Of a stretch of DNA of 64,000 nt, positions 5,572-60,942 are shown in pieces. The DNA is taken from NCBI RefSeq assembly GCF_029854705.2, contig NZ_CP139035.1, forward strand, positions 2,170,001-2,234,000, in the 5' to 3' direction. The first letter of the stretch is position 1; each line of letters begins with the position of its first letter. The notes beneath the pieces were generated by a model that saw nothing but the letters and a program-made list of their open reading frames with translations, ran no database searches and had not been told where the DNA came from. This stretch comes from Akkermansia sp. N21116 (lineage in GTDB: Bacteria; Verrucomicrobiota; Verrucomicrobiia; Verrucomicrobiales; Akkermansiaceae). The translations under genes and the position numbers were made by a program.

Positions 5572-6346
5572 AGTCTGACTCTGCTCATTTTAAGGGAATG
5601 GTTCGTGTTAGTTGGGCAGGACTGTTCGTTCGTTCCTCCCTGCGTCCTCATATTTTGAGGTAACCGGCAGCTTTTTCTTTTCTTCGCTTTTTCCCGGAGT
5701 TCTGAATCATGAGACAATACGATATCTAAAATGCAGATGGTAAATCTATTATAGTAATGTTGAGAGAAGATTCTCAATACTTATCCGCTTGATTTTTTGA
5801 AAGTCTCCAAGAAATTCATTGGAAGAAAAAACAAGATCAATCGGCGCTTTCATGCTTGATTGTATCTCAATCTCTCTTATATGGGATCGATATCCGGATC
5901 AGTTCAAGGAGATACCGTCTGGGGAACATGGAACGGACTTGAACCTCTTTCTCTTCTGGGATCTAATGCATTGCTTATCGAAGATCTGACGGCAGAGGAA
6001 CTCACCATCGGATTTGCCGCCGGAAGCCTGGGCATACATTCGGTGGCTGGATTCCAGATCGTCAAATCTGTCGCTGCAATCAACTTGGAGGCCAAGACTA
6101 CAGCCAACTGGTCGGACTCTATCTGGATGCTGAAGATGATTGCCTTGTCAATCGAAGCCAGAATGGCGGATTCCAATTCCGCTTATTATCAATGTAATTT
6201 ACTTATTATCAGGTAATAATAATATTATTTTTCTTTGCTGCTTTTATGGGAAATGGTTGAGTAAGGTTCGGACAATTAATGTGTTTTTTTGCTTGATAGC
6301 GGAATTGGAATTCGATAGAAAAAAGACAATTCTATTTCTTTTTTCT
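5572..6346. other. Long gene-free region upstream of the autotransporter
   Basis: About 775 bases. The largest ORFs (5860-6216 plus, 5904-6176 minus) start poorly and have no recognisable motif, so I do not call genes. Near the end an AT-rich segment has a 6-bp inverted repeat TTATTA/TAATAA with a 5-base spacer, about 130 bases before the autotransporter start. The region probably holds the autotransporter promoter and leader. A decayed coding segment around 5880-6180 is possible but unproven. Confidence 0.35.
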
Positions 6347-12300: not shown

Positions 12301-15300
12301 GCTTCTTGCCGCTCTCGGAACGACACTGGCAGTAAATCATTCCTCGGGCGGAGGCCTCGTCTTCGATGACTCCGGTAGGAACGATGCGGCAGTCTCCATC
12401 TCCGGTACGGGACTTGTACAATTGTCCGGACTGGCTGGGGATGCGAAACTTTCCGGAACGGTTTCCGTTTCAGACGAAGCTTCGCTGGAACTGGTCAATG
12501 TAGTCCAGCAAGGTTCGGTCACCCTCTCCGGGAAGCTCTCCGGTGTGGCGGGTACCCTTGAAAAAACTTCCGGTACTCTCGTTCTGAACCTCCTCAACGA
12601 AGGGGACATCTTCGGCGGCACGTTGAAGGCCGCCGCCCTCACCGTCAGCGCCGTCGGTTCGACGGCGACCGACAAATCCCTGGGACTCTCCGGCACGATG
12701 TCGGCCTCCGGTCTGATCCTTTCCGATGGAGCCGAACTCAAGTTGCTTTCCAACGGAGAACTTGCCGTCGATGGGACCATCTCCGTCAACTCCGGTTCCG
12801 GCCTTACCCTCGCCGGCGGTACGCTGACGCTGTGCAATGCTTCCGGGGTTGCGACAGATGATGTCCTCTCTGGCACGCAAGGCACGGTCACTTTAGGCAA
12901 CGGAACTCTCACCGCGGCCACAGGCAGCTCGGGCTGGACAGCCTCCCATGCTATGACCCTTTCGGGCACGGGCGAGAACGGAACGCTCGTCAGCCTCGGC
13001 GACGGACAGACTGTAACCCTGGGCGGAGTCCTGAACGGCTCCGGCCTCTTGACCAAGCAAGGGGGAGGCACCCTCGTCCTCGGCAACGGCGGCAATACCG
13101 TCTCCGGCGAGATCGCGCTGAAAGAAGGCCGTCTCGAACTTGTCGACGGAGCCAGCCTCGGCACATCCCATGTTACCGTCTCGGGCGGTACTCTCGAATT
13201 GAACGGCATGGCCTCCTCCGGATCCTCTCTGACGGTACGGGGCGGCGCCCTGTCCGGAGCCTCGAACTACGCCCCCGCAGGCGGAGTCACGGTCGAACTC
13301 ACCGGCCAGGCGACACCCGTCGACCTGGGCGGCCTCAACGGCAGCGCCCTCACCAGCATCCATCTTGGCGCAGGGGCCTCCTCCGGCGGTCTCGACTACG
13401 GCAGTTCCATCACCGGGCTCACGGGCAATATCTCCATTTCCGGCGCCACAGACGAAGGCGGCGTTTCTACCCCCAACGTTCTCCTGACCGCCGGCAGCGG
13501 CAACGCCCTCATCGGCGGCAGCTCCGGCAGCGCTCAATCGCTCATCTCCTTCGAGACGCCGGGGACATCCCACCAAGTCTACCTCGGCGACATGCAGATC
13601 AACCTCACCGACGGACTGCTGGAAGAACTCCACGACCTCCGGGCGGAAGGCACCACCATCCTCCTCCAGCTCACCGACGGAGCCCTCGCCGTCACCGATC
13701 CTCTGACGCGCACCGCCAACGGCATCAGCGACGCGGCCCACGCATGGCTCAGCTCCATCCGCTTCAACCCCGTCCTGGAATACCTCGGCTATGCCGTCCA
13801 GCGCAACCTGGATGCCGACGCCCTGCAGGCCAACCTCGACGCGGGCCGTCTGGCCGTCACCGCCGGAGGGGAAATCTACTACGCCACCGACGCGACTCTC
13901 GACGGGAACGGCCGGCGGCGCCTCGACCTGAGCTACCGCAATCCGGGAGAACCCGAAGAAACGCCCGCCTCCACCCACTATAACTACCTCGACGCCTACA
14001 AGATGGTGATGATCAACGCCGACCTCAACGTCGTCATGAGCGGAGCCCCCGGCGACGCGTCAACCCTTGGCCTGCACGTCGAAAACCTCTCGGGTGGCCT
14101 CAACTCCGCCACCGGGGAACGCTACACCCTCGAGTTCGAAAACAACCTCGGCACCGACAGCGTCGCCCGTGTCGAACTGGTCAACGGCAGCTACGAAGGT
14201 CGCAACCTCGACACCGTTTACGAAGGCAACCTCAAGGCGGGCATCGTCGACTTCGTCAAGACGGGCAAGGGATCGCTGACCATCAACGGCGACGTGACCA
14301 TCGACGGCGGCATCGAAACGCGGGAAGGCACCCTCGTCCTCAACGGGCATAACAGCCTCGAAAGCCTCACCGCCGGCACCGGAGACGGCCTGACCGTCAT
14401 CGGAGGGGAAACCCTGGTGAAGGGCGTATACGGGCAGGGAGGCACCCTGGAACTGCGCGGAGTGGACTCCCGCCTGGTGGTCACCGGAAGCGACACGATG
14501 GACCTGGCCACCCACATCACCGGGGACGGCACCTTCTCGATGGCTTACGGGACGCTGCGCCTGGTGGACGGAGGCGACTTTTCGGGCAACTCGACGCTCG
14601 AACTCCAATCGGGCTCCGTCCTCGACGTGGCCGGCGGCAACGACGTCACCGTCGGCCTGCTGACGGGAGCGGGCATCGTGCGCTTCAACGGAACGGGCAG
14701 CACCCTGACCGTGAAGAGCGACCGCGACTCGAACCTCAGCATCGCCTTCGAAGGCCGGGGCACCCTCGCCAAGGAAGGCCAGGGCACCCAGACCCTCGGC
14801 GTAGCCTCGAAAGACCTCAGCCTTGCCGTGCGCGAAGGCACCCTTGTTCTCTCTGCACACGACGGTAATTACGATCGGGTCACGGTCGGCACAGGAAACG
14901 GGAAGGCCACTCTGCGTCTGGCGGAAGACATCCTCATTAACAGCTTGACTGTTGGTACCCATGGACGCCTCACCTTAAACCGTGGAGAAAATCGTCCGGG
15001 CATCCTCTCCTGCGCCGGCAACGTCGACCTGCAATCCGGCTCCACCCTCGACCTCGTCCTGCCCAACCCGATCGCCTCGATCGACGCGGACGGACACATC
15101 GCCCTGGGCGACGGCGTCACCCTCAACCTCGTCAACGGCAGCCGCGACGGGAGCTGGAAACCATCCGACACCGACTCCCTCGAACTCATGGCCGCCCACG
15201 GCGGCTTCCTCGACGCCTCCGGCAACCCGCTGGGCTTCGGCAGCAGCCTGATCACCTGGACGGTCAACATGGAACAGAGCCTCGGCCTCTTCTACACGGG

Positions 15301-16516
15301 AGCCAACCTGCACGTCAGCGACGACGGGCGTCGCCTGCTCGCCGACCTCTCGGTGAGCTCCGGCAACCTCCTCGAAGAAGTTGCCCGGAGCGGAGTCGCC
15401 AGAGCCGGTGCCGACCTCATCTGGCAGGCGGGCCTGCAGGAATCCGGCACCAGCCTCGACCGCGTCCTCTCAAGCATTATGGACGACGTCAAGGCGGGCA
15501 ACCGCAGCGGAGCGAGCCGCAAGCTGGCCGCCGTCGCGGGCAGCACCGTCACGGGCATCCTGGCCGCGGCGAAGAGCGACCTCGCCTACCAGCAGAGCAT
15601 GCTGCGCAACCGCGTAGCCGGCATGGGGCTCAACAACAACGACTACACCTACGAGAACACCCTGCCGTACTACAACTTCTGGCTGCAGGGGACAGGGAGC
15701 TACAACCAGCTCGACACGAGCGGCGACTACGCCGGCTACAAACTGGTCAACTGGGGAGGCACGGTGGGAGCCGACGTGAACGTCAGCAGCACCGTAACCC
15801 TCGGGGCAGCCTTCAGCGCGAACTACGGAGACCTGAGCAGCGACGGAACCGACCGCCTCAGCGGAGACCTGGACGGGACCTACATCAGCCTGTTCGGGAA
15901 GTACCAGGGACGCAAGTGGGGCCACTCACTCATCGTCACCGGGAGCCGCTACGACGCGAGCGTCGACCGGACGGTGAACTTCGGAACGGACAGCTACACC
16001 GGCCACGGGACAAGCGACGGGACAGGCTGGGGAGTCCTCTACGAAGCGACCTGCGACATCAAGCTCAACGACGAAGGGACGAAGATCCTCCAGCCCCTGT
16101 TCGGAGCCTCGCTGGTACACGTCGGCATGGACGACTACCGCGAGAGCGGAGCTGGGAACGCGGGATTGGACGTCAGCGACCTGGACGCGACGACGGGGAG
16201 CGTGACGGCGGGTCTTCGCTACCTGGGCCTTGTAGGGAGCAACGTCTTCGGACGGGAGGCGCTGGGCGAACTGCGGGTGCAAGTAGTGCAGGACATGGGA
16301 GACGACCGCGCGAGCGGCCAGGTAGGCTTGCAAGGCAACCCCGGCATCCGCCGCGAGGTGGAAGGAGCGAAGGCGGGGATGACAGGGGTTCAGTTCGGAG
16401 CGGGGCTGAGCGTTCCCGTAGGAGTGAATGGCACAATCTTTGCGGAGGCGAACACGGAACTCCGCAGCGGAGCGACCTGGGCGAGCGGCTCGCTGGGTTA
16501 CCGGTACAACTTCTGA
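6347..16516 (+). CDS. Giant autotransporter adhesin-like protein (PATR repeats, beta-barrel)
   Basis: A type V secreted surface protein of about 3,389 residues. The frame is open from 6140, but the ATG at 6347 begins a clean signal peptide (MKLRLPLSLLAAVLG, cleavage likely after SSA near residue 28). The passenger is an extended Gly/Thr/Ser/Asn-rich beta-helix with repeated passenger-associated transport units of the form K.GAGTL.L..A.TYSGGTT...GTL. The last ~285 residues (from about 3105) form the outer-membrane beta-barrel and end in a terminal Phe (GSLGYRYNF), as BamA-inserted barrels do. No protease motif is evident, so an adhesin or structural role is most likely. GC content rises sharply from about 12600 to the end, with a lower-GC patch near 14845-14996. 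A related decayed barrel end lies at about 60025. Confidence 0.9.
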   Translation: MKLRLPLSLLAAVLGCFSSFIPQESSAMDYSYSEGSVTDYTENWTLGNDTLTLSGTASLTLSGGFKTNGGNNKTVVLVKESASLTAATMQLGDNRAWFTFEMTGNSTVSITSRLDMFMAIPDNNYAGENSTFTIGGGTLNVQQLNIGRDNNWGSNGALPAPGNEPVGMDYFYMTGGRMNVGSGGVDANIQTTTIFSGGTLGVLDSDWKWNEIRKYNPDGVVNEIMLEGNTFTINTEATRDGTGDNTTKIGDGKKIILGATLRDNVVITEDRQEIVRTGGLIKEGAGTLVLTAANTYSGGTTLNAGGIEIAKESALGQGNLTINASTFLLLSSNATVGGNLVLNGKSTITMPSGNLLKVTGNVTYGTDAVTTLKLTGDFTTGSSTPTILVQADSYNFSDDSSHWNIRFTKRSSADIVFGNGSISFTDLQYTAGENITWNGGNSGMWESIGSGWFKTGTSQDDVYYDADNVTFSPDHAGTVTLQEQLAPGKMTVNGDYTFSGIGSLNGSFDLEVQGGNVIMQVPVNRTGGNTTVSAGSLWVSNADAAIGQITLGAEGTLQLGSSSSILTDFDHQELKEGGNLQIWGRGNLSASGGNDGNNTTFKVGEGFHGTIEMKSGLINWETSENVLMGNAEANGPTLILNGGGVVTTGTPETQVYNPITIGENGAVIRSYGAKYATYYGPITGSGKISHTDGGYVTFKDMTGFSGEFVNERGSVTFDSAIHFSNLTSNSSNDKSLITLTGKAGSSVTGTIKLAANSSLTMDIGKENTLETTNFLVSGTAAQTITLTSGTLKVTGTNNARKQSDLSFSLNTAGTGSNTTTLHIATNAAIDAADTVLATGWEGNSTINLEGGTINVKGLCSSNPTNAVAINLKSGTVKLGDYGITDYQWSVTGNQTDAKVSLTLGTVEIIAQADLSIDPHRLDDNATDIVTLTDAVTGTTFNTNNHTITVNDCLVGDGKVVKTGAGTLILQKAGTYAGGTVINAGTLRASHASALGASDVTVNEEGILQLTASDPYSNNVVLTDTDSKLLWDTGSEGTLTGTMNGSISGSGILEKTGTGTMKMLSAQTLENFNGTIHVIGGQLQLGNAVNGQSVSTGKSRIILETGSDLFLNGGDNARHIVAGDVTVQGKSRISLYAGFNGQIALDLQGAMMLNNDLTLVKTWAKQIGISGKLSGKGNLVYDPTIKDNAAWQENNKLIISSANTDYEGTVRMIEATTTAKKRPGWLILQNDDALSSAQVELVSTQAYLVVDTGNATLKGLTGSGYVSSGEGSNTLTLDITGSLSNAFNGTIGDKMKTTGENAYAANGSLSLVKNGGGELILSGANSYTGGTTVQAGTLTITNASSLGSGNVHLGSGATLKSGIRWDNSLVLDGEAAVESSHDNALFAGSTSGNNTFVKKGASLLTFCDASADEQNDGTTAHTAIYQHGDTIVSEGELQLGILWKTYDQKTEHRFGTGTVYIEDTAKFSLGLSYNTYGTVKFASDITTKNGGTLEVLDGNHELTGTLTFGQHAGDTTTFQDAGWGAKTYGTVISGKVSGHGTLNIVNGDQEASDNLLTLSNASNDFNGTVNVHNVRLRLNSSLEGASINLTESIKEKPDNTALVVNGDEITIGGISGIAESSVYAQGGARTLTVETDGNANYAGIIKDWSGVNDGSVLSLVKDGTGKQTLAQAAYTGSTSILDGTLELTSAFTSSSLTISGNGYLKGTDLTLQGTKSLVFDLKNRTTAAPAFINLSGNITGDTNFSLVLHNFGRDQKNQEGAYALITTTGAASLNTPEYLSTWWTYDPQSTDYYNYNLKLGDDRKTLYLQLTEIGSWTWDGNSSGDHVWSSSNQNPWTHEAKYSEGPDGVKIVFDDSASPSVLISGQVKPRSVDVNNSTIGYMFSADDHTAGSGIVDAGESSKTALTKKGAGKLSLASNLKNTYSGGTYLYDGMIEMGNSNSLGTGIVDFLGGTLGNVAGTDVTITNVLTDAIPESAIGITDKQAIKLLAALGTTLAVNHSSGGGLVFDDSGRNDAAVSISGTGLVQLSGLAGDAKLSGTVSVSDEASLELVNVVQQGSVTLSGKLSGVAGTLEKTSGTLVLNLLNEGDIFGGTLKAAALTVSAVGSTATDKSLGLSGTMSASGLILSDGAELKLLSNGELAVDGTISVNSGSGLTLAGGTLTLCNASGVATDDVLSGTQGTVTLGNGTLTAATGSSGWTASHAMTLSGTGENGTLVSLGDGQTVTLGGVLNGSGLLTKQGGGTLVLGNGGNTVSGEIALKEGRLELVDGASLGTSHVTVSGGTLELNGMASSGSSLTVRGGALSGASNYAPAGGVTVELTGQATPVDLGGLNGSALTSIHLGAGASSGGLDYGSSITGLTGNISISGATDEGGVSTPNVLLTAGSGNALIGGSSGSAQSLISFETPGTSHQVYLGDMQINLTDGLLEELHDLRAEGTTILLQLTDGALAVTDPLTRTANGISDAAHAWLSSIRFNPVLEYLGYAVQRNLDADALQANLDAGRLAVTAGGEIYYATDATLDGNGRRRLDLSYRNPGEPEETPASTHYNYLDAYKMVMINADLNVVMSGAPGDASTLGLHVENLSGGLNSATGERYTLEFENNLGTDSVARVELVNGSYEGRNLDTVYEGNLKAGIVDFVKTGKGSLTINGDVTIDGGIETREGTLVLNGHNSLESLTAGTGDGLTVIGGETLVKGVYGQGGTLELRGVDSRLVVTGSDTMDLATHITGDGTFSMAYGTLRLVDGGDFSGNSTLELQSGSVLDVAGGNDVTVGLLTGAGIVRFNGTGSTLTVKSDRDSNLSIAFEGRGTLAKEGQGTQTLGVASKDLSLAVREGTLVLSAHDGNYDRVTVGTGNGKATLRLAEDILINSLTVGTHGRLTLNRGENRPGILSCAGNVDLQSGSTLDLVLPNPIASIDADGHIALGDGVTLNLVNGSRDGSWKPSDTDSLELMAAHGGFLDASGNPLGFGSSLITWTVNMEQSLGLFYTGANLHVSDDGRRLLADLSVSSGNLLEEVARSGVARAGADLIWQAGLQESGTSLDRVLSSIMDDVKAGNRSGASRKLAAVAGSTVTGILAAAKSDLAYQQSMLRNRVAGMGLNNNDYTYENTLPYYNFWLQGTGSYNQLDTSGDYAGYKLVNWGGTVGADVNVSSTVTLGAAFSANYGDLSSDGTDRLSGDLDGTYISLFGKYQGRKWGHSLIVTGSRYDASVDRTVNFGTDSYTGHGTSDGTGWGVLYEATCDIKLNDEGTKILQPLFGASLVHVGMDDYRESGAGNAGLDVSDLDATTGSVTAGLRYLGLVGSNVFGREALGELRVQVVQDMGDDRASGQVGLQGNPGIRREVEGAKAGMTGVQFGAGLSVPVGVNGTIFAEANTELRSGATWASGSLGYRYNF
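7190..7312 (+). repeat. PATR unit 1 in autotransporter passenger
   Basis: Encodes a passenger-associated transport repeat: KEGAGTLVLTAANTYSGGTT, then a GGIEIAKESALGQGNLTI tail. It shares the pattern K.G.GTL.L....TY.GGT....G.L.......LG...V with the units at 9227, 10280 and 12062. Confidence 0.7.
9227..9349 (+). repeat. PATR unit 2 in autotransporter passenger
   Basis: Encodes KTGAGTLILQKAGTYAGGTV followed by INAGTLRASHASALGASDVTV. It has the same length and register as unit 1. Confidence 0.7.
10280..10402 (+). repeat. PATR unit 3 in autotransporter passenger
   Basis: Encodes KNGGGELILSGANSYTGGTT followed by VQAGTLTITNASSLGSGNVHL. It has the same length and register as units 1 and 2. Confidence 0.7.
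12062..12184 (+). repeat. PATR unit 4 in autotransporter passenger
   Basis: Encodes KKGAGKLSLASNLKNTYSGG followed by TYLYDGMIEMGNSNSLGTGIV. Looser copies follow near 13050-13180 (KQGGGTLVLG), 14260-14370 (KTGKGSLTING) and 14775-14865 (KEGQGTQTLG). Confidence 0.65.
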
Positions 16517-50573: not shown

Positions 50574-51215
50574 TTAGTCGGTTCTGCCCATCATGGAGCG
50601 GGTTTCATCAACCGTTTTGACTTGGTATTCTTTCAAGGAATAGACTGGAGGAGCGGCTAGATCGGCGCGTTTTTGGATGATGTTTTCGTTCAAATCCGTC
50701 TCGAAGGTTTTCTTGCCGTCCCAGGATTTACTGGAATCCCCGTATGAGCTGGTTGCGAAGCTGGCGTCTCCTCCCTGCCATTTGCGGTTATTGAAATTCT
50801 CGGCGTTCTTGATGAATTCCGGCGTTTCCACGGTCATTTCGTTGAGTTTGCGGCTGTCTTTCCATGCCTTGGTATCGAAGGCTTTTCTGGAAACGTCGGC
50901 GAGGGATGTTTCGAATCCCTTCGTGTCGAACTTTTTCTTTTCAAAGGCATCGTCATTGCCCGTATCGTAACGATTGCCTTCGAATGAGCTTCTGCGGTCC
51001 GAGGCAACCTGCATCGTGCCATCCGGCATTTTTTTATAGGAAAACCCGCCGGCATAATGTTCGCGGAGGTCCTTTTCCTGTCCAAAATCCTGACGTACCC
51101 CATCCTGTTTTTTTCCGCTGACCAGAGAGGTCTTCCGATCTGTTTCTACGGAACAGGAGACGGTCAGTAGAACGGCGGATGCCAACAGGGCAAATCGTAG
51201 GAAAGCTTTGCTCAT
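50574..51215 (-). CDS. Lipoprotein of unknown function (Lys/Phe/Asp-rich)
   Basis: A 213-residue predicted lipoprotein, with the lipobox in ALLASAVLLTVSC (Cys at residue 21). The mature chain repeats short K-x-F-D/E-T elements (EKKKFDTKGFETS, SRKAFDTKAWKDS, WDGKKTFETD), which hints at a degenerate internal repeat. No known domain is recognised. A periplasmic role is all that can be said. Confidence 0.7.
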   Translation of the reverse strand: MSKAFLRFALLASAVLLTVSCSVETDRKTSLVSGKKQDGVRQDFGQEKDLREHYAGGFSYKKMPDGTMQVASDRRSSFEGNRYDTGNDDAFEKKKFDTKGFETSLADVSRKAFDTKAWKDSRKLNEMTVETPEFIKNAENFNNRKWQGGDASFATSSYGDSSKSWDGKKTFETDLNENIIQKRADLAAPPVYSLKEYQVKTVDETRSMMGRTD

Positions 51216-51288
51216 AGATGCGGATTAACCAATATGACGCGTTAAATCAAGTAGAGAGATGAAAAAAGTGAGGGACCCTGGATTTTTT

Positions 51289-52734
51289 TTACCTCATGAC
51301 GGATGCCGCCGGGCCGGGAACTCCGTAGGGAGATATCCCCCTGACGGCTAGTGAAGCGGCATTGCCGATGAAGGAATTGGGTAGTGTCAGCTTTGTTTGA
51401 TTGCCCGGCAGGAGGCATAACGTGCGCCACTGGGAACCGTAGCGGGCCTGAATGGCCCATTTTCGCGCGGGACGACCGCTGGGTGTCCATGTGAGCGATG
51501 TAACGGAGGAGTTGCCCGTGGCACTGAGATTGGGCTGTCCCGGTTCTGCGGATCCCGACCAAGGCATGGCAGGAGGGATTGCTGCATCAGGATAAAGAGC
51601 CCGAATATGTTTCTGGATGCCGTCTTTGTTCTGAAGGATGGAACGTATGCTCCAGAAGCATTGACCGGGGGCCGTACGCGCCAGGGAGCGGGAGTATTGA
51701 ATCTGTCTGGCAATTTCGGAAGCCGGTCTTCCTGGATCTTCAGAGCTCTTAATACGGGCTGTGGCGATGCCGGGCCAAACGGGGCGGGACGGGTTCTGGG
51801 CAGCCCACCATTGCATCAAGGCAGGAAAACTCTGCTTGGCCGGTTCACACCTCCAGTAAAGCTGTGGTGCCAGGTAGTCCACCCATCCCTTGCGAAGCCA
51901 TTTTCTGGCGTCGCAGGCAAGGTTTTCATAGGCATCGACTCCGGCTTCGATACCGCTCGGATTACCGGGTCTCCAAATGCCGAACGGACTGATACCGACG
52001 CGTACCCAAGGTTTGGCCGATTTGACCATGTCATACATGTCGGAAACGAAGGAATCAATGTAGTCACGGCGCTGGGAGCTGCTCTTGCCGTCGCGGAGGA
52101 CGGCGGGAGGATAGGGGTAGAAGTAGTCGTCCAGATGGATTCCGTCGATGTCATACCGTTTCACAATGTCCTCGACGACACTCAAGACATGGCTTCGCGA
52201 GCGGGAGATACCCGGATCCAGCATCAGGACGCTGCCGGCGGGCTTGATGATTTCCGGGTGGGAAAGGGAGATGTGGCCTCTGCCTACGCTGTGGTTTTTG
52301 TTGGCTTTGGCCCGGAATGGGTTGATCCATGCGTGGAGTTCCAGCCCGCGAATATGGGCCTGGGCTGTTGCAAAGGCGAGGGGATCGTACCCCGGATTAA
52401 CTCCCGGGCCGGAGAGCCATTGGCTCCAGGGCTCCAGCGAGGAGCGGTAGAGGGCATCGGAGTTTGGGCGTATTTGCAGGAAAACGGCGTTGAGCCTCAA
52501 CTGGGCGCAGGTGTTCAGAATGCGGATGAGTTCTGCCTGTTGGGCTGAAGCGGAAAGGCCAGACCGGGAAGGCCAGTCAAGATTGTGGACGGTGGCTACC
52601 CATGCAGCCCGGAACTCCTGCCTGGGGGGAGGTACGTTTTCCCGGGAAGGCTGCCATGCAAGAAGAGGGGTGGCGGCCAGCAGCAGGCTCAAGGCCGTTC
52701 CGTATATTTTGCCGGATATTGAGCGGATTTTCAT
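51289..52734 (-). CDS. GHL10-type secreted glycoside hydrolase
   Basis: A 481-residue exported protein. A signal peptide begins at ATG 52734 (MKIRSISGKIYGTALSLLLA). The core is the DUF187/GHL10 (glycosyl hydrolase-like 10) barrel: REFRAAWVATVHNLDWPSRS, CAQLRLNAVFLQIRPNSDAL, HIRGLELHAWINPFRA and YDIDGIHLDDYFYPYP, where the Asp/Glu pair on the strand ends is expected to be catalytic. VRVGISPFGIWRPGNPSG follows, then a C-terminal fibronectin-like region (SSVTSLTWTPSG). The substrate is a glycan, perhaps peptidoglycan or host oligosaccharide; neither is proven. Confidence 0.87.
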   Translation of the reverse strand: MKIRSISGKIYGTALSLLLAATPLLAWQPSRENVPPPRQEFRAAWVATVHNLDWPSRSGLSASAQQAELIRILNTCAQLRLNAVFLQIRPNSDALYRSSLEPWSQWLSGPGVNPGYDPLAFATAQAHIRGLELHAWINPFRAKANKNHSVGRGHISLSHPEIIKPAGSVLMLDPGISRSRSHVLSVVEDIVKRYDIDGIHLDDYFYPYPPAVLRDGKSSSQRRDYIDSFVSDMYDMVKSAKPWVRVGISPFGIWRPGNPSGIEAGVDAYENLACDARKWLRKGWVDYLAPQLYWRCEPAKQSFPALMQWWAAQNPSRPVWPGIATARIKSSEDPGRPASEIARQIQYSRSLARTAPGQCFWSIRSILQNKDGIQKHIRALYPDAAIPPAMPWSGSAEPGQPNLSATGNSSVTSLTWTPSGRPARKWAIQARYGSQWRTLCLLPGNQTKLTLPNSFIGNAASLAVRGISPYGVPGPAASVMR

Positions 52735-52881
52735 GGATGAATGCAACTGCGACAGATGTACCCGATAGGCGGGAGAATGTCCATCAGTCATCGGGACTTC
52801 CCCTATGGTTTTTCCTGTCAGAAATGACTGGGAAAGACGTTTTTTAAACAAAAATGCGCTTGGGCGTCACTATACAGGTAT

Positions 52882-53163
52882 ATGAACGAACCGATGAAAA
52901 AGAAACTAAAATACGTTTGGCTCATTCCGTTGGCTGCCATGGCTTTTCCTCTGAGTTCCTGTACGACGGATGCCTACGGCAATACTTCGGTATCTCCGGG
53001 AGGAGCCGTTGCCATCGGTGTGGGAGCTCTGGCTGCCGGAGCCATTGCCGGTGCGGCCATCCAGAACAATCATGATCGCAAGCACCATTACGACGACCGT
53101 TACCATGATCACCATCACCACAATGACCATTACAGGCATGATTACCGCCATTACCATCGCTGA
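52882..53163 (+). CDS. Histidine-rich small lipoprotein
   Basis: A 93-residue predicted lipoprotein, with the lipobox in AMAFPLSSC. After a hydrophobic Gly/Ala segment (VAIGVGALAAGAIAGAAIQN) the last ~32 residues are a His/Asp/Tyr tail (HHYDDRYHDHHHHNDHYRHD) that could chelate zinc, copper or nickel. The Gly/Ala region resembles a glycine-zipper. The start may be 52882 or the ATG at 52894. It lies 154 bases before the Mla-like operon. Confidence 0.75.
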   Translation: MNEPMKKKLKYVWLIPLAAMAFPLSSCTTDAYGNTSVSPGGAVAIGVGALAAGAIAGAAIQNNHDRKHHYDDRYHDHHHHNDHYRHDYRHYHR

Positions 53164-53316
53164 GGATGGCGGGAGTAATGATCAGTTGTTTCGAAAAACG
53201 TTTCCCGCCGGACAACATGCGGCAGGGGTTCCTTTTCTTTGTTGTATGGATTCTTCTAAAGAGGAATGGTAGAATGATGGCTTGATTCGGTCTCTTGAAC
53301 GTGTTTAGTAACATTC

Positions 53317-54117
53317 ATGCATTTTCGCTTGCCGGCGACTCTGGGACGAATGGCCTTCAATGTATTGGATCTTTTTGGATCCATGGGCGTCCTGTTTTTC
53401 GGTTTCCTGCGGAGTTGTTTGTATGGGAAGTTCCGCTACCGGGTGCTTGTCGATCAAATCATGAGGATCGGTGTCGGTTCTCAGCCTGTTGTCCTGCTGA
53501 CGGGAGTTTTTACCGGGGCTGTGCTGGAGGCCCAGACTCTTTTCCAGCTTCAGACGGTGAAAATGGAGACGATGGGGGGGGCGGTCGTAGCCGTGGGTAT
53601 GTTCCGTGAGCTGGGTCCCGTCATTACGGGGTTGATGCTGGCGGGACGTGTCGGATCTGCCATGGCTGCTGAAATTGGCACCATGCAGGTGACGGAACAA
53701 GTGGATGCTCTGAGGACGATGAATGTCGATCCTGTGGACTACCTCGTCAAACCACGCATCCAGGCGATGTTGATTTCCACGCCGATTTTGATGCTGGAGG
53801 CTGTTCTGATGGGGGTTCTTGCTGCGTATGTGATCGGCGTTGTGTCTTTCAACGTCAACGAGGCCTACTGGCTCCACTTTATGCAGAAGTTTGTCGCAAT
53901 CGGAGACTTGGTTTGTTCGGTTGTCAAGGCTCTTGTTTTTGCTATGTTGATCGGGATTATTTCCTGCCGGGAAGGAATGGCTACTGTAGACGGTGCCGTA
54001 GGTGTCGGGCGTTCGACAATGCGCGCCATGGTATATTCCGCCGTTTCCCTGCTGGTTGCCAATTTCCTGCTGACAATGGTGCTGAACCAGATTTTCCCGA
54101 TGGGGTTCATGCGTTAA
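53317..54117 (+). CDS. mlaE: MlaE-family ABC transporter permease
   Basis: A 266-residue inner-membrane permease. Family elements are FTGAVLEAQTLFQLQ, RELGPVITGLMLAGRVGSAM, AAEIGTMQVTEQVDALRTM and VDYLVKPRIQAMLISTP. It is the channel part of an MCE-type lipid transporter that moves phospholipids between the two membranes. It is followed within 5 bases by an MlaF-type ATPase and then an MlaD-type MCE protein. No mlaA, mlaB or mlaC gene is seen here. Confidence 0.95.
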   Translation: MHFRLPATLGRMAFNVLDLFGSMGVLFFGFLRSCLYGKFRYRVLVDQIMRIGVGSQPVVLLTGVFTGAVLEAQTLFQLQTVKMETMGGAVVAVGMFRELGPVITGLMLAGRVGSAMAAEIGTMQVTEQVDALRTMNVDPVDYLVKPRIQAMLISTPILMLEAVLMGVLAAYVIGVVSFNVNEAYWLHFMQKFVAIGDLVCSVVKALVFAMLIGIISCREGMATVDGAVGVGRSTMRAMVYSAVSLLVANFLLTMVLNQIFPMGFMR

Positions 54118-54121
54118 CGAA

Positions 54122-54967
54122 ATGACCGGAAGACGAATTATGCAAACACCCTACATTGAAGTTGACGGCATTACCCAGTCTTTTGGATCCCAGCGTGTGC
54201 TGGACGGAGTCAGTTTTGAGGTGAAACGCGGAGAACTTTTGGCGCTCATAGGCGGTTCCGGGGCGGGCAAAAGCGTCATCCTCAAACATCTTGTCGGATT
54301 GCTGGATCCCAAGTCGGGAACCGTCATGATTGATGGCAAGCGCATGAGCAATGTTCCCGAGGCGGACAAGGCACCTCTGCGTTCCAGGATCGGCTTTATG
54401 TTCCAGCAGGGGGCTTTGTTCGATTCCATGAGTGTTTTCGAGAACGTTGCTTTCCCGTTGATCGAGCAAGGTATTAAAGACGAAAACGAGATACGCTCCA
54501 GAGTGGAGGCCGCCCTGGCTTCCGTGGAACTGGACGGGCATGGTGACAAAATGCCGGCCAACCTTTCCGGGGGCATGATCAAGCGTGTAGCTGTCGCCCG
54601 GGCCATGGTGTCGTCCCCCGAGTGCCTGCTGTATGATGAACCGACGGCCGGATTGGATCCGGTCGTATCCGACAATGTCAGTTTCATGATCCGCCGCATC
54701 TGCATTCGGGAAAACATTACGACGCTGATCGTTACGCATGACATGAGCAGCGTTATTCATATCGCCGACCGGGTGATCTTTCTGGACCGGGGTAAAGTCC
54801 GCTGGACAGGTACGCCGCTGGAATTGGTGAAGACGGAAGACCCTCTTTTGATGAATTTCGTCCGCGGCTCGTCGGGCGAGGACTGGAAAACCCTGCAGGG
54901 GGAACCCAGACCGAATTTTCAGGAAAAACTGATTAACGAAGCAATTCGAGAACGTTATCACATTTGA
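54122..54967 (+). CDS. mlaF: MlaF-family ABC ATPase
   Basis: A 281-residue ATPase. Walker A GGSGAGKS, signature LSGGMIKRVAVARAM, Walker B LLYDEPTAGLDPV and the H-loop VTHDM are intact. Start 54122 or the ATG at 54140. It ends 8 bases before the mlaD-type start, so mlaE-F-D form a tight operon. Confidence 0.95.
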   Translation: MTGRRIMQTPYIEVDGITQSFGSQRVLDGVSFEVKRGELLALIGGSGAGKSVILKHLVGLLDPKSGTVMIDGKRMSNVPEADKAPLRSRIGFMFQQGALFDSMSVFENVAFPLIEQGIKDENEIRSRVEAALASVELDGHGDKMPANLSGGMIKRVAVARAMVSSPECLLYDEPTAGLDPVVSDNVSFMIRRICIRENITTLIVTHDMSSVIHIADRVIFLDRGKVRWTGTPLELVKTEDPLLMNFVRGSSGEDWKTLQGEPRPNFQEKLINEAIRERYHI

Positions 54968-54975
54968 TTATTTTT

Positions 54976-55980
54976 ATGAGTAAAAAAACCAGAACGGAAA
55001 CATGGGTGGGGCTGTTCCTGCTGATCGGGATTATCCTGGTGACGGTTGCCGTCCTCTCCGTCGGCAATTTCAAAACATCTTCGGATACCACATATCCTAT
55101 CAGTATCATGTACAAGGATGCCGCCGGATTGATCAAGGGCTCCCAGCTTCGACTGGGGGGGGCTTTTGTCGGAGAGGTTGTGTCTCCCCCGGAATTGACG
55201 GAAACCGGCAACAGGGTCATCGTTCACGTCAGAATCAACAAAGCCGTCAGGATCCAGGTCGGTTCGGATTTTCGCATCGACATGCAGAACCTCCTTGGAG
55301 ACAAATACATCGACATTGTTCCTCCCGAAGAACCGACTAATCAGTACCTGCCTCCAGGTTCCCTCATTATGGGACAGACGGAAAGCGATCTGAACAAGAT
55401 CAAGAACAATGCCGTCCAGGCCAGTCAGGATGTGGTAAACCTGTTGCGCAAGCTGGACGAAAACTTCGACAATATCGAACGGGCGATCAACGATATTTCC
55501 TATGCGGCCAAAAGCCTGGCAGAAACAACCCGGAAAATCAACGAAGGGATCTTATCTACGGAAAACGTTTCCTATGTAAACGGAATCCTTAGAAATACCG
55601 ACGAAACGACCCGGAAGATGCCGGAGATGATCGACGAAGCCCGCAACTCTCTGGTGGCGCTGAACGATACCATGACCGATGTGCGAGACGTAACTAAATC
55701 GATTGGAGAGAAACTCAATCTTCTGGATCCGGCTTTCCGGGATGCGGCTCCGACCATGGCTGCTGTCCGCCAGACAGCCAACAACGTTTCGACAATAACA
55801 CAGGATATCCGCAAGGGTAGGGGAACCGTCGGAACGCTCATGTATGACAAGTCCTTCAAGGAACAGATCGAACAGTTTATCCGTAATCTTCGCGATTATG
55901 GCATTCTGCGGTACAGGAATCCCGATGAACCTCCGCCTTCGACCGATCCGCGAACAGGTTATTCCGGAAGTCGCCGTTGA
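54976..55980 (+). CDS. mlaD: MlaD-like MCE-domain protein
   Basis: A 334-residue protein with one N-terminal helix (TWVGLFLLIGIILVTVAVLS) and an MCE domain (PISIMYKDAAGLIKGSQLRL, GGAFVGEVVSP, IDMQNLLGDKYIDIVPP). The remaining ~190 residues are a long helical region with regular hydrophobic/charged spacing and the MCE-tail motif TVGTLMYDKSF, well beyond the length of E. coli MlaD, suggesting a bridge-like or needle-like extension. The ATG at 54976 is preferred over an upstream TTG. Confidence 0.92.
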   Translation: MSKKTRTETWVGLFLLIGIILVTVAVLSVGNFKTSSDTTYPISIMYKDAAGLIKGSQLRLGGAFVGEVVSPPELTETGNRVIVHVRINKAVRIQVGSDFRIDMQNLLGDKYIDIVPPEEPTNQYLPPGSLIMGQTESDLNKIKNNAVQASQDVVNLLRKLDENFDNIERAINDISYAAKSLAETTRKINEGILSTENVSYVNGILRNTDETTRKMPEMIDEARNSLVALNDTMTDVRDVTKSIGEKLNLLDPAFRDAAPTMAAVRQTANNVSTITQDIRKGRGTVGTLMYDKSFKEQIEQFIRNLRDYGILRYRNPDEPPPSTDPRTGYSGSRR

Positions 55981-56131
55981 GCGGAATGACAGATGATGGT
56001 AACATAGGCAATGAATTCAGCTTGCAAATCATCCTCGCCTCCGCCAGAATCCTACGTAGAAGAGAAACGGGCGAGACGTAAAAACAACGCTTTCTTTTCA
56101 ACGAGAACCATTTTTTCAGCATCTAACGATT

Positions 56132-56548
56132 ATGGACAATACAGAAACCAATACTCCGTCTTTTGAACACGCTAAGGATGAATTGAAGACTGCCGCAACG
56201 ATTGCTGCCGACGCTATGACCGAAGCTGCCGATGTGGTTGCCATTCAAGCCGTTCAGGCTCGTGACGTGGCTGCCGGTCGTTTCAAGCAGGCTCGCGAAT
56301 TTGCCGCTTCCAAGGTAAGTCAGATCCGTCAGGCTGCCGGAGAACAGGCTTCCGTCATCCGTGATTACGCTGTCAGCAAGGCCTCCATTGTCCGCCGCAA
56401 GGCTGGCGAAGGCTGGGACGATACCCGTGACAAAGCCAAGGAACTCCATTCGGCCGGCGAAGAATACGTCAAGGCTCATCCGACCAAGTCCGTATTGATT
56501 GCGTTAGGTGTGGGTGTTCTTCTGGGAGCTCTTCTGCGCCGCCGCTGA
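56132..56548 (+). CDS. YqjD/ElaB-like (DUF883) membrane-anchored protein
   Basis: A 138-residue protein. A long alanine-rich amphipathic helical region (AATIAADAMTEAADVVAIQA, FKQAREFAASKVSQIRQAAG) is followed by the DUF883 ending EEYVKAHPTKSVLIALGVGV, LLGALLRRR, a single membrane helix at the C terminus. E. coli relatives (ElaB/YqjD) bind ribosomes at the membrane in stationary phase. It heads a cluster with a YqjE-like and a YqjK-like gene. Confidence 0.88.
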   Translation: MDNTETNTPSFEHAKDELKTAATIAADAMTEAADVVAIQAVQARDVAAGRFKQAREFAASKVSQIRQAAGEQASVIRDYAVSKASIVRRKAGEGWDDTRDKAKELHSAGEEYVKAHPTKSVLIALGVGVLLGALLRRR

Positions 56549-56711
56549 TGGAACGCGCCAGAAGGGCACGAGTTGCTCAATTCTTTCTCCGGCACCTGAT
56601 ATTTCAAATAGGCAGGGAGGGGGATTGACTATACTTTGTTCCTTCTGGTTGTTACGCAAATGAATATGTCCAGTCTTCCCGGACGGGGAGGGTGAACTTC
56701 CGAAGGCGAAT

Positions 56712-57179
56712 ATGATGAATATCTTTTCCAGATTGTACGATTTCGTTCCCTTGGTTACCGGCTTGTTCGGAAGGGGGAACAGTCGAAATGAGGGAGAAGG
56801 AATGAGCCGTTCCCTGTCGATGATCCTGTCGGCAGGACTGGACCATGCTCATTCGCTTTTTTCCCTGTTCCTTCTGGAATTGGGAGAAGCGGCCGAGAGG
56901 TTGCGCGGTAAGGCAATCTGCCTGGCGGCGGGCGTATTCCTGCTCTTCTTCACCTACATTTTTTTCTGTATAACGGCAACGGTTCTGCTGAATATTTGGC
57001 TGCATAGCCTTCTGTTGGCTTGTACTATTATGTTCGCCCTGCACTTGATCGGCGTGGTTGTTGCCTTTGTGCTGGCCTCCCGCATCAAAGTCGGTCCGGT
57101 GGCGCCGGAAACGCTTCAAGAGCTTCAATCCGATTACGAATGTCTGCAAATTGCCATCAAAGAAAGCAGGAACTCCTGA
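56712..57179 (+). CDS. YqjE-like (phage holin superfamily) membrane protein
   Basis: A 155-residue protein with two strong membrane helices: AICLAAGVFLLFFTYIFFCI and LLLACTIMFALHLIGVVVAF. The soluble N terminus carries the YqjE pattern LFLLELGEAAERL before the first helix. It overlaps the next gene by 40 bases. Despite the holin-superfamily name in databases it is not a lysis gene by context. Confidence 0.8.
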   Translation: MMNIFSRLYDFVPLVTGLFGRGNSRNEGEGMSRSLSMILSAGLDHAHSLFSLFLLELGEAAERLRGKAICLAAGVFLLFFTYIFFCITATVLLNIWLHSLLLACTIMFALHLIGVVVAFVLASRIKVGPVAPETLQELQSDYECLQIAIKESRNS

Positions 57180-57538
57180 CCCGGTTGGCCGAATCCCGCG
57201 TTGAAATGCTGGATGGAGTTGAACGAATAACGTCCAGAGTGGAAACTTCTCTGGACTGGTTGGGAAATGTCCGGTCGGGAATCACCCGGCATCCGGGCAT
57301 TTGGATTGGCGGTTCCTTGGTTTCCGGCCTTTTGGCAATCAAGATTCTTTCCGGCTTGTTCGGACACCGTCGTCGATGCTGCGGTGCTTCCGCTGAGGAG
57401 CCAAGAAGAAGAGGATTGCTTTCGGGGGCTTTGTCCGGGACGGTCAACTTATTGATCATGACGGCTCTTCCTTCTTTACGCACTTTTGTTCAGGAGTTTG
57501 TCCGGAACAAGATGTCTGCCTGGATCAAGGAGCGGTGA
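57140..57538 (+). CDS. Small membrane protein, YqjK position
   Basis: A 132-residue protein from ATG 57140, overlapping the YqjE-like gene by 40 bases in another frame. A helical start (RKQELLTRLAESRVEMLDGV) is followed by GIWIGGSLVSGLLAIKILSG, a membrane segment, and a basic Cys-containing loop (GHRRRCCG). The C terminus FVQEFVRNKMSAWIKER is amphipathic. By position and size it corresponds to YqjK of the yqjD-yqjE-yqjK cluster; similarity is weak. Confidence 0.6.
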   Translation: MSANCHQRKQELLTRLAESRVEMLDGVERITSRVETSLDWLGNVRSGITRHPGIWIGGSLVSGLLAIKILSGLFGHRRRCCGASAEEPRRRGLLSGALSGTVNLLIMTALPSLRTFVQEFVRNKMSAWIKER

Positions 57539-57564
57539 TAATTCCGTGATATGTTTATTTTTTG

Positions 57565-57593
57565 TGCCGGACTTGCCGTCCGGCATTTTTTTT
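57565..57593 (+). terminator. Terminator after the YqjDEK-like cluster
   Basis: An 8-bp stem TGCCGGAC (57565-57572) with GTCCGGCA (57578-57585), a 5-base loop and eight T. It separates the cluster from the PilT genes. Confidence 0.93.
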
Positions 57594-57674
57594 ACGCTTC
57601 TCTCTGTTTTTTCTGGTCAAGAAGAAGGGTGATAGGTTAGTGTGCCATATTATCATCTTTGTTGTAATCAGGAC

Positions 57675-58760
57675 ATGAGTGAATATATTTTGCCACATGT
57701 GGACGGTTATCTGAAGATCGGGCAGGATTTCGATTGCTCCGATATTCATTTGGCCGTGAATACCCCTCCGACATGGCGTCGGTATGGACAGTTGATGCCG
57801 ATTTGGGCAGAAGCTCCCAAATTGACTCCGGCTGATACGGATACCCTTGTCCGTAGTTTCCTGCTGGAGAGGGAATGGAACCGTTTGCAGGAACGCGGTG
57901 ACGTTGATTTTGCCTATTCTAACGACTTTGGCCGTTATCGTGCTTCCGTCGTCAAGCAACGCCTCGGCTATGATCTCTGCTTCCGTATCATTAATACCCA
58001 GGTGCGCACGATGGACGAAATCGGGTTGCCTACGGAAGATATTATTCCCCTGACTCGTTTTAACAACGGCCTGATCCTGGTGACCGGTTCTGTCGGTTGC
58101 GGTAAATCAACCACGCTGGCGTCAATCGTCGATTTCATCAACCAGGACCGACAAGACCATATCATCACTCTGGAAGACCCGATCGAATACATCATCAATA
58201 GCAAGGGCTGCCAAGTCAACCAGCGAGAAGTCCACAAACACACCGAATCTTTCGCCAGGGCGCTTCGCGGCGCTCTCCGTGAAGACCCGGACGTCATCAT
58301 GGTCGGTGAAATGCGCGACTTGGAAACGATTTCTCTTGCTTTGACTGCTGCTGAAACGGGCCACCTTGTGCTCGGTACCCTGCACACGGGATCCGCCGCT
58401 CGTACGGTTGACCGTGTTCTGGACGTGTTCCCCGTCGAACAGCGTGACCAGATCCGAATTATGGTCAGTGAATCCCTTCGAGGCATTATTTCCCAGCAAC
58501 TCGTTCCCCGCGCCGACGGCAGAGGACGTGCTCTTGCCATTGAAATGCTCGTCAACACGCCCGCTATCGGCAACTGTATCCGTGAAGGCAAAACCTTCAT
58601 GATCCCCGGTTGCATCCAGACCGGCAAGGCTCAGGGAATGATCCTCATGGACGACTCTCTGAGGGCTCTGCACAAGGCAGGCATTATCTCGACCGAAGAG
58701 TGCCTGTTCCGTTGCGATGACAAGACGATCATGAAAACCTATCTCGGCATCAAGGACTGA
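57675..58760 (+). CDS. PilT-type secretion ATPase, first copy
   Basis: A 361-residue PilT/PilU-type hexameric ATPase. Walker A GSVGCGKST, Asp box LEDPIEYI, Walker B MVGEMRDLETISLALTAAET and His box LVLGTLHTGSAA are all present. The N-terminal PAS-like domain (SEYILPHVDGYLKIGQDFDC, DIHLAVNTPPTWRRYGQ) is about 15 residues longer than in copy two, and the C terminus lacks the classical AIRNLIRE motif, reading AIGNCIREGKTFMIPGCIQT. It may play the PilU-like role with the following gene. No pilin gene is near. Confidence 0.9.
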   Translation: MSEYILPHVDGYLKIGQDFDCSDIHLAVNTPPTWRRYGQLMPIWAEAPKLTPADTDTLVRSFLLEREWNRLQERGDVDFAYSNDFGRYRASVVKQRLGYDLCFRIINTQVRTMDEIGLPTEDIIPLTRFNNGLILVTGSVGCGKSTTLASIVDFINQDRQDHIITLEDPIEYIINSKGCQVNQREVHKHTESFARALRGALREDPDVIMVGEMRDLETISLALTAAETGHLVLGTLHTGSAARTVDRVLDVFPVEQRDQIRIMVSESLRGIISQQLVPRADGRGRALAIEMLVNTPAIGNCIREGKTFMIPGCIQTGKAQGMILMDDSLRALHKAGIISTEECLFRCDDKTIMKTYLGIKD

Positions 58761-58820
58761 TCAGAATCCACCGAATCACATCGATTTTTCAACCATTAAT
58801 TTTGAAGGAACAATCAAGCC

Positions 58821-59912
58821 ATGGCCGTTATTGACCAATATTTCCGTTACCTTGTCCAAGAAGGCGGGTCCGACTTGCACGTCAGCGAAGGACAACCCCC
58901 CAAGGTCCGTATCAACGGATCTATCGTCCCCATCAACGATACGCCTCTGGAAGGCGAATCGTTCAAAAACATGTTGGCAGAAATCTGCGATGCCAAATCC
59001 TTCCATACATATCTGGAAGAAGGCGATCTCGACTTTGCCTATGAAATGGACGAGAACTCGCGTTTTCGATGCAACTTCTTCAAACAGCAAAACGGTCTCG
59101 CTGCCGTTTTCCGTTTGATTCCGACGAAGATCGCTACGCTGGAACAGCTTGGCGTACCGGAAGCCGTCAAGCAGTTCGCCCATCTTCGCTCCGGTCTTGT
59201 GCTGGTAACGGGACCTACGGGTTCCGGTAAGTCCACGACACTGGCCGCTATCATCGACTACATCAACAGCAACCAGTCCCGGCACATCATTACGGTGGAA
59301 GAACCGATCGAATTCGTCCACAATAACAAATCCTCGATCATCACCCAGCGTGAAGTGCCTATTCAGACCCCATCGTTTGCCGACGGCCTCCGAGCTTCCC
59401 TTCGTGAAGACGCCGATATTGTGCTCGTGGGTGAAATGCGAGACTTGGAAACGATCTCTCTGGCCCTGACGGCAGCGGAAACCGGTCTTCTGGTTTTCGG
59501 TACCCTGCATACGAACAATGCCCGCAAGACGGTTGACCGTATTATCGACGTGTTCCCCTCGGAACAGCAGTCGCAGGTGCGTACCATGTTATCCGCATCC
59601 ATTCGCGGTGTTGTCGCTCAGCTCCTGATGAAGCGCAGCGACAAACCCGGTCGAGTAGCCGTCAACGAAATCATGTTCGCTACGCCTGCCGTTAGCGCCA
59701 TTATCCGTGAAGGCGCCACCCAGAAACTGGCCGACGTTATCGTCGGTGGCAAGAGCATGGGTATGCAGTTCATGGATGATGCCATCTGGCAGAAACTCCA
59801 GCAGGGCATTGTCTCTCCGGAAGAAGCCTACATGAAGAGTATCGATAAGGCTCGTTTCCGCAATTTCCTGCCGGCGGCGTCCAAAAAACTCGGTGATGCC
59901 GGCGGCGTCTAA
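58821..59912 (+). CDS. pilT: PilT-type twitching-motility ATPase, second copy
   Basis: A 363-residue retraction ATPase of type IV pili. GSDLHVSEGQPPKVRINGSI at the N terminus, Walker A GPTGSGKST, Asp box VEEPIEFV, Walker B VGEMRDLETISLALTAAETG, His box FGTLHTNNARKTVDRIIDVF and the C-terminal ASIRGVVAQLLMKR and AVSAIIREGATQKL (AIRNLIRE-like) are the textbook PilT order. It lies 60 bases after copy one. Akkermansia relatives carry pilus-like proteins elsewhere, so these may drive retraction of those pili (inference). Confidence 0.93.
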   Translation: MAVIDQYFRYLVQEGGSDLHVSEGQPPKVRINGSIVPINDTPLEGESFKNMLAEICDAKSFHTYLEEGDLDFAYEMDENSRFRCNFFKQQNGLAAVFRLIPTKIATLEQLGVPEAVKQFAHLRSGLVLVTGPTGSGKSTTLAAIIDYINSNQSRHIITVEEPIEFVHNNKSSIITQREVPIQTPSFADGLRASLREDADIVLVGEMRDLETISLALTAAETGLLVFGTLHTNNARKTVDRIIDVFPSEQQSQVRTMLSASIRGVVAQLLMKRSDKPGRVAVNEIMFATPAVSAIIREGATQKLADVIVGGKSMGMQFMDDAIWQKLQQGIVSPEEAYMKSIDKARFRNFLPAASKKLGDAGGV

Positions 59913-60024
59913 CTGCAAGAACAAGCATCAATTTTGTTAAACCCGAAGGGCTGTCTTTCTCGTGAAGGACGGTCCTTCGACTCTGATGGGCATCGACTTC
60001 TGGCTACTCCTGTCATCAATACGG

Positions 60025-60321
60025 TCAATACGCCGGATCGCCTGATGGGGATCGTCGGCGGGAACGTGTTCGGTCGCGAATCGCTTGGGGAACTCCGGGT
60101 GCAGGTCGCGCGCAGGACTTGGGTGACACGCGCAGCGAAGGCAACGTAGGATTCCTGTCCAATCCCGGCTTCAGCCGCAAAGTGAAGGGGAATAAGGCAG
60201 GGGCGACGGGGCTTCAGTTCGGGGCAGGATTGAGCCTTCCCTCGGGCGACCAGGGGACGATATTCGTGGATGCTACGGCGGACATCCGCAGCGGGATGAC
60301 ATCGGCGAGCGGTACAACTTC
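60025..60321 (+). pseudogene. Decayed autotransporter beta-barrel 3' end
   Basis: Reads as the last ~95 residues of an autotransporter barrel similar to the intact gene: GNVFGRESLGELRVQV in one frame and GNVGFLSNPGFSRKVKGNKA, GATGLQFGAGLSLPSGDQGT in the next, matching GSNVFGREALGELRVQV and GMTGVQFGAGLSVPVGVNGT. One extra CG unit in the tract at 60107-60113 shifts the frame, and a 16-base deletion bounded by CGG repeats removes the GSLGYRY end. The terminal codons thus fall out of frame. No promoter or passenger remains; a strong terminator follows. Confidence 0.85.
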
Positions 60322-60351
60322 TGAAGTAGACGCAATACAATAGGAACACCC

Positions 60352-60405
60352 GGCCCCCCTCTTGCCTGTGTTTTTCAAGCGGGTCAAGAGGGGGGCCTCG
60401 TTTTA
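60352..60405 (+). terminator. Strong terminator after the autotransporter relic
   Basis: A 13-bp perfect stem GGCCCCCCTCTTG (60352-60364) with CAAGAGGGGGGCC (60385-60397), a 20-base loop and TCGTTTTAT. It was probably the terminator of the lost autotransporter gene. Confidence 0.87.
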
Positions 60406-60489
60406 TGTCCTATGAAATCGATCTATTGCAAAAAAGTCCATCCATGAAGAAATTTGTTCTCATCCCAATTCATATTTTCCCTTCTCGGA

Positions 60490-60540
60490 AAATGAAGAAA
60501 GGACTACCTACCAAGGTAAAAACCTTGGTGAGATAGTCCT
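60490..60540 (-). terminator. Terminator of the HU gene
   Basis: Minus-strand hairpin with outer stem AGGACTA/TAGTCCT (60500-60506 with 60534-60540) and inner stem ACCAAGG/CCTTGGT, followed by a T-rich TTTCTTCATTTT stretch. It lies 42 bases after the HU stop. Confidence 0.6.
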
Positions 60541-60553
60541 CTCACTGAAGTAG

Positions 60554-60575
60554 CCCGGATCTCGAAGGATCCGGG
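60554..60575 (-). promoter_or_regulatory. Hairpin just downstream of the HU stop
   Basis: A perfect 8-bp stem CCCGGATC/GATCCGGG (60554-60561 with 60568-60575) with a 6-base loop. It has no T tract and is followed by a second hairpin (60490-60540). It may protect the mRNA 3' end or slow transcription before termination. Confidence 0.5.
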
Positions 60576-60581
60576 AATTAA

Positions 60582-60875
60582 TTAGAGTTCGGAAACTTTT
60601 TCCTTCAATTCCTTGCCAACCTTGAACTTGACAACGGAACGGGCAGGGATGGGAACATCCTTGTCCGGAGCTTTCGGGTTGCGGCCAACCTTGGCCTTGA
60701 CTTCCTTGACATGGAAGGTACCGAAATTACGAATGACGACGCGGTCTCCGTCGGCAAGAGTGGAAGAAATGATGTCAACAGCACGCTGAATAACATCGAA
60801 CACTTCAGTCTGAGTCAGTTGCGTTTCTGCGCTAATCTTGTTAACGAGGTCACGTTTGGTTAATGTGTTAGCCAT
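60582..60875 (-). CDS. HU-family DNA-binding protein
   Basis: A 97-residue nucleoid protein: TKRDLVNKISAETQLTQTEV, DVIQRAVDIISSTLADGDRV, then VIRNFGTFHVKEVKAKVGRN, PKAPDKDVPIPARSVVKFKV and GKELKEKV. The GRNPK and PARSVVKFKVGK motifs form the HU/IHF arm and saddle. The ATG at 60875 gives the family length. An extra 21 codons upstream are not conserved. Confidence 0.96.
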   Translation of the reverse strand: MANTLTKRDLVNKISAETQLTQTEVFDVIQRAVDIISSTLADGDRVVIRNFGTFHVKEVKAKVGRNPKAPDKDVPIPARSVVKFKVGKELKEKVSEL

Positions 60876-60913
60876 AATATAAATTGATACTGTGTGGAGT
60901 GGATGTCTCTCTC

Positions 60914-60942
60914 TTATCAGACATTCAGTTTTTGTCATTCAA
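60914..60942 (-). promoter_or_regulatory. Possible promoter for the HU gene
   Basis: On the minus strand TTGAAT (60942-60937) and TGATAA (60919-60914) are 17 bases apart, about 40 bases upstream of the HU ATG. Match quality is moderate. Confidence 0.4.

Follow-up and report, generated by a model that had tools for sequence, protein, structure and literature searches.

Remnant of an autotransporter gene between pilT and the HU gene of Akkermansia sp. N21116

In Akkermansia sp. N21116 a short stretch of autotransporter sequence lies between pilT and the gene of an HU-type DNA-binding protein, which raises the question of what it is and how it came to be there. The window that was analysed comprises 64,000 nucleotides, i.e. 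bases 2170001-2234000 of the single 3.497 Mb contig (G000:C1). The 3' end of the autotransporter gene occupies window positions 60038-60351 on the + strand, and the relic as a whole has its 5' limit at about 59982, upstream of the start at 60025 given in the first-pass annotation. It contains two small coding pieces, a linker and a barrel end, and a transcription terminator. The features of the locus are:

58821..59912, + strand: pilT, type IV pilus retraction ATPase; a 363-aa ORF, the intact upstream neighbour
59944..59979, + strand: hairpin behind pilT, probably the old pilT terminator, without a T run (folding)
59982..60039, + strand: relic of the pre-barrel linker, SDGHRLLATPVINTVNTPD (BLOSUM62 protein comparison)
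60038..60039, + strand: junction of the internal deletion, with a 2-nt overlap TC (ends of the linker and barrel matches)
60038..60321, + strand: last ~100 codons of the barrel, from RLMGIVGGN... (match to the 2353 kb gene)
60107..60113, + strand: CGCGCGC tract with one extra CG, a frameshift (missing from 17 of 17 intact paralogues)
60310..60312, + strand: CGG remaining at the site of a 16-base deletion (two CGG in the paralogue, one here)
60322..60351, + strand: old stop codon and conserved 3' untranslated stretch (identity with the 2353 kb gene)
60352..60405, + strand: locus-specific intrinsic terminator (hairpin 60352-60397, then TCGTTTTA)
60582..60938, - strand: gene of an HU-type DNA-binding protein, the intact convergent neighbour (conserved across the genus)

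The closest copy of the barrel end was found in the same genome, on the minus strand at G000:C1:2353695-2354022 (E 1.4e-141), about 123 kb from the relic. Counted by substitutions, window 60038-60351 is 98.4% identical to this 2353 kb gene (5 in 312 aligned bases), and two further matches in the same genome gave E values of 1e-102 and 1e-97. The match to intact barrel ends greatly exceeds chance expectation, in line with the earlier description of the segment as a decayed autotransporter barrel end. The first-pass annotation had related it to the intact gene within the window (6347-16516). The two are indeed significantly similar (E 1e-19, 67% DNA identity), but the 2353 kb paralogue, and not the gene in the window, is the closer relative.

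Both small lesions that had been proposed were recovered in the comparison with intact genes, and both are private to the relic, neither being carried by any of the 17 intact paralogues. The extra CG in the tract at 60107-60113 shifts the reading frame. At the second lesion the 2353 kb paralogue has two CGG copies 16 bases apart, of which the relic keeps one, and this 16-base deletion removes the C-terminal aromatic residue. The G at position 60203 is also found in none of the 17 intact genes.

Directly ahead of the barrel end, the sequence 59982-60039 translates in the barrel frame to a peptide that represents the segment just before the barrel in the autotransporter family. Its counterparts are HDGRQLLATPVLNKVNTLD in the 2088 and 280 kb genes and ADGKSLMATPVFNKVNT in the 2932 kb gene, and its homologous position in the intact genes is 397-400 residues before the C terminus. 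Against the 280 and 2088 kb genes the BLOSUM62 score was 68, and against the 2932 kb gene 57; the score of 68 compares with a maximum of 55 in 1000 shuffles, and the other frames gave 35 or less. When the comparison was confined to the final 1500 nt of the genes, none of 500 shuffles reached the DNA-level score of 34; over the whole genes about 4-5 of 400 shuffles came near or above it, i.e. the match is moderately above chance. The protein-level test is the stronger of the two. The linker match runs to 60039 and the barrel match begins at 60038; about 837 nt (net) are missing here, and the frame is kept. Linker and barrel end follow each other in the order and frame of the family and are two separate parts of one gene, joined by a deletion of that size. 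The earlier view that only the 3' end remains, with no passenger, holds for the passenger but not for the linker, which has been kept as well. On balance the relic has lost its signal peptide, its entire passenger, the greater part of the barrel and the final residues, and the past large deletion that had been suggested is supported.

The two coding pieces have different nearest relatives. The barrel end is like that of the 2353 kb gene and the linker is closest to those of the 2088 and 280 kb genes; the 2353 kb gene's own linker does not match that of the relic. The relic is thus a mosaic of two paralogue types, which supports a past recombination event, another of the origins considered earlier. 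Since one paralogue matches the barrel end and another the linker, the gene probably took part, before its death, in the 3'-end exchange that is characteristic of the family. Intact pairs show this break as well: the genes at 2353 and 2088 kb have 83-98% identity in their last 1100 nt and about 60% further away from the 3' end.

The genome encodes 34 PF03797 barrels, the highest number among the 76 Akkermansia species searched. Seventeen giant autotransporters with YRYNF C termini (L103-L134 and window 6140-16516) group by common 3' modules, which are anchored at the 3' end and measure 2.1-11 kb at 96-99.9% identity; the 604 and 1978 kb genes, for instance, agree at every position over the 9129 nt that precede the stop. 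The shared modules end about 0-90 nt past the stop, the N termini are largely unrelated, and the terminators mostly differ between loci. Such a pattern is suggestive of passengers being exchanged on a homogenised barrel.

Given that the family plainly exchanges 3' ends of this size and identity beneath largely unrelated N termini, the relic could be thought of as a silent 3' cassette, kept as a gene-conversion donor for the intact autotransporters, as the first-pass annotation had proposed. We hold this to be very improbable. Many silent 3' cassettes had been named as the sign of such a repertoire, and a cassette system would have several promoterless partial copies; the genome-wide search with the barrel end gave one orphan in the subfamily, the relic itself, and the repertoire was rejected on this ground. 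Cassette-specific variants should moreover be seen in expressed genes, but both lesions and 60203G occur in 0 of the 17 intact genes. A single orphan with lesions that are missing from the intact genes does not support the donor idea, and with the intact genes enough donors are already at hand.

With significant homology to intact paralogues and disabling lesions, the relic is, as judged from its sequence, an ordinary and well-supported autotransporter pseudogene. It shares with the type Va PF03797 autotransporters of Akkermansia a closely related barrel end, the same frame and the same 3' untranslated stretch; unlike them, it has no signal peptide, no passenger, only a small part of the barrel and no C-terminal aromatic residue, and it is frameshifted. 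In a PF03797 profile search it gives no match, i.e. the complete, aromatic-ended barrel of a functional type Va protein is absent. Upstream, pilT ends at 59912, and where a signal peptide and passenger would be expected there are only about 19 codons of linker ahead of the barrel. Without these parts and with its frame broken, the relic cannot make an autotransporter. The interval between pilT and HU might instead give rise to a small expressed protein or a structured RNA, and ORF 59934-60149 is open; the frame is broken in the barrel, however, no conserved counterpart is present at the site in 75 other species and the locus has no Rfam match, and we give this possibility hardly any credence. 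An RNA family at the locus was rejected on the absence of the Rfam match.

The 3' side of the relic has the layout of the intact loci, in which a conserved 3' stretch is followed by a terminator that differs between loci. The 30-nt stretch 60322-60351 is identical to the 2353 kb gene and the similarity stops at ACACCC. The hairpin that follows (-38.5 kcal/mol, z -5.3) and its tail are unlike the terminator of the 2353 kb gene, and form the strong terminator that had earlier been described as kept. On the 5' side, the hairpin behind pilT folds into a stem of 16 bp at about -27 to -30 kcal/mol (z -3.3). Its counterpart in G089, the nearest relative, runs into TTTTTTT, whereas here there is no T run, which fits a deletion ending at this point. 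As pilT's own hairpin is without a T run, the old autotransporter terminator may now end the pilT transcript.

PilT is 94.5% identical on the amino acid level to the copy in G089. There, the HU gene is flanked on one side by the orthologue of window 50574-51215 and on the other by rnhC and coaD; pilT is located elsewhere and has other genes after it. HU adjoins the same orthologue in G004, G016, G041 and G048 also, and in several more distant species coaD follows directly after pilT. Since HU and pilT have different neighbours in the relatives, the pilT-HU junction is a synteny breakpoint, and the relic lies on it. The block 51216-60582, from a GHL10 glycosidase gene to pilT, sits between 50574-51215 and HU; it probably moved, because its two flanking genes adjoin in five relatives.

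The breakpoint, with HU beside the 50574-51215 orthologue in these five genomes and other genes after pilT in G089, is what one would expect if the fragment had never been a gene here and had been left as a scar when the pilT block moved beside HU, after a break inside an autotransporter elsewhere. We consider this distinctly unlikely, since linker and barrel end both occur, in the order expected for the family, and are followed by its 3' stretch and then by a separate terminator. A search of the far end of the moved block (51216-51290) for autotransporter sequence was moreover negative. A tRNA near the junction, as an integration site, was not found either, the sole tRNA detected in the window lying 27 kb off.

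Very probably, a complete autotransporter gene once stood between pilT and HU and was lost by successive deletions. As the linker precedes the barrel end in frame and order, this was probably a whole gene and not a bare 3' cassette. The 98.4% match of the barrel, the position of the linker, the kept 3' stretch and terminator, the private lesions, the missing T run of the pilT hairpin and the status of the relic as the sole orphan of its subfamily all argue for decay in place. Against it stand the moderate DNA-level match of the linker over whole genes, and the failure to find a related genome in which the gene at this position is intact. The first-pass annotation had advised searching for such a gene, and none was found in 75 other Akkermansia species representatives, as far as the partly broken draft contigs allowed; likewise, of the barrel-end matches listed for other species, none shared a (draft) contig with pilT or HU at a distance of 10 kb or less. 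Loss at this site would thus be read from the anatomy of the relic, the compared genomes being those of other species only.

From the pieces, their order and frame, the lesions and the nearest paralogues, all directly visible in the DNA, we infer the order of events and the former 5' part as follows. The original gene, in the orientation of the relic, would have had a signal peptide, a long passenger, the linker, an outer-membrane barrel and its own terminator. One deletion would have begun directly after the pilT hairpin and taken away everything as far as the pre-barrel linker, and a second would have cost the gene about 837 nt between the linker and the end of the barrel. The 16-base deletion between short repeats and the CG insertion by slippage may have come before or after the larger deletions.

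Decay of autotransporter paralogues to fragments is already known. In Rickettsia the sca autotransporter genes degrade to split genes, fragments and remnants (PMC1388218), and the relic resembles them as a member of a paralogous family that has decayed to a fragment; it differs in its host, a gut verrucomicrobium whose genome has 34 barrel-coding loci, and in its mosaic composition from two types of paralogue. Autotransporters of Akkermansia are known as outer membrane proteins (PMC4960237), and none of the papers searched dealt with gene conversion in Akkermansia autotransporters. By itself the relic is of little weight, being a single dead member of a large family of genes, and the surrounding family is of more interest. 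It does show that deletion, in addition to the exchange of 3' ends, contributes to the turnover of this family, which matters when surface proteins of Akkermansia are counted or compared. A more speculative proposal, which we think rather unlikely, is that the autotransporter genes are recombining modules, with exchangeable N-terminal passengers and homogenised 3' ends, and at the same time places where the chromosome rearranges; an event of this kind would have brought the pil block next to HU and destroyed the autotransporter gene at the junction, with the relic as its scar.

A second broken autotransporter was observed at about 2423-2426 kb of G000:C1 (L247:3514-6788), with one frameshift between passenger and barrel; compared with the 2881 kb gene, its passenger is 79% and its barrel 99.1% identical on the amino acid level. 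Finally, at 935-959 kb of the same contig (L127, L115), autotransporters of 7840 and 1051 aa are encoded in tandem.
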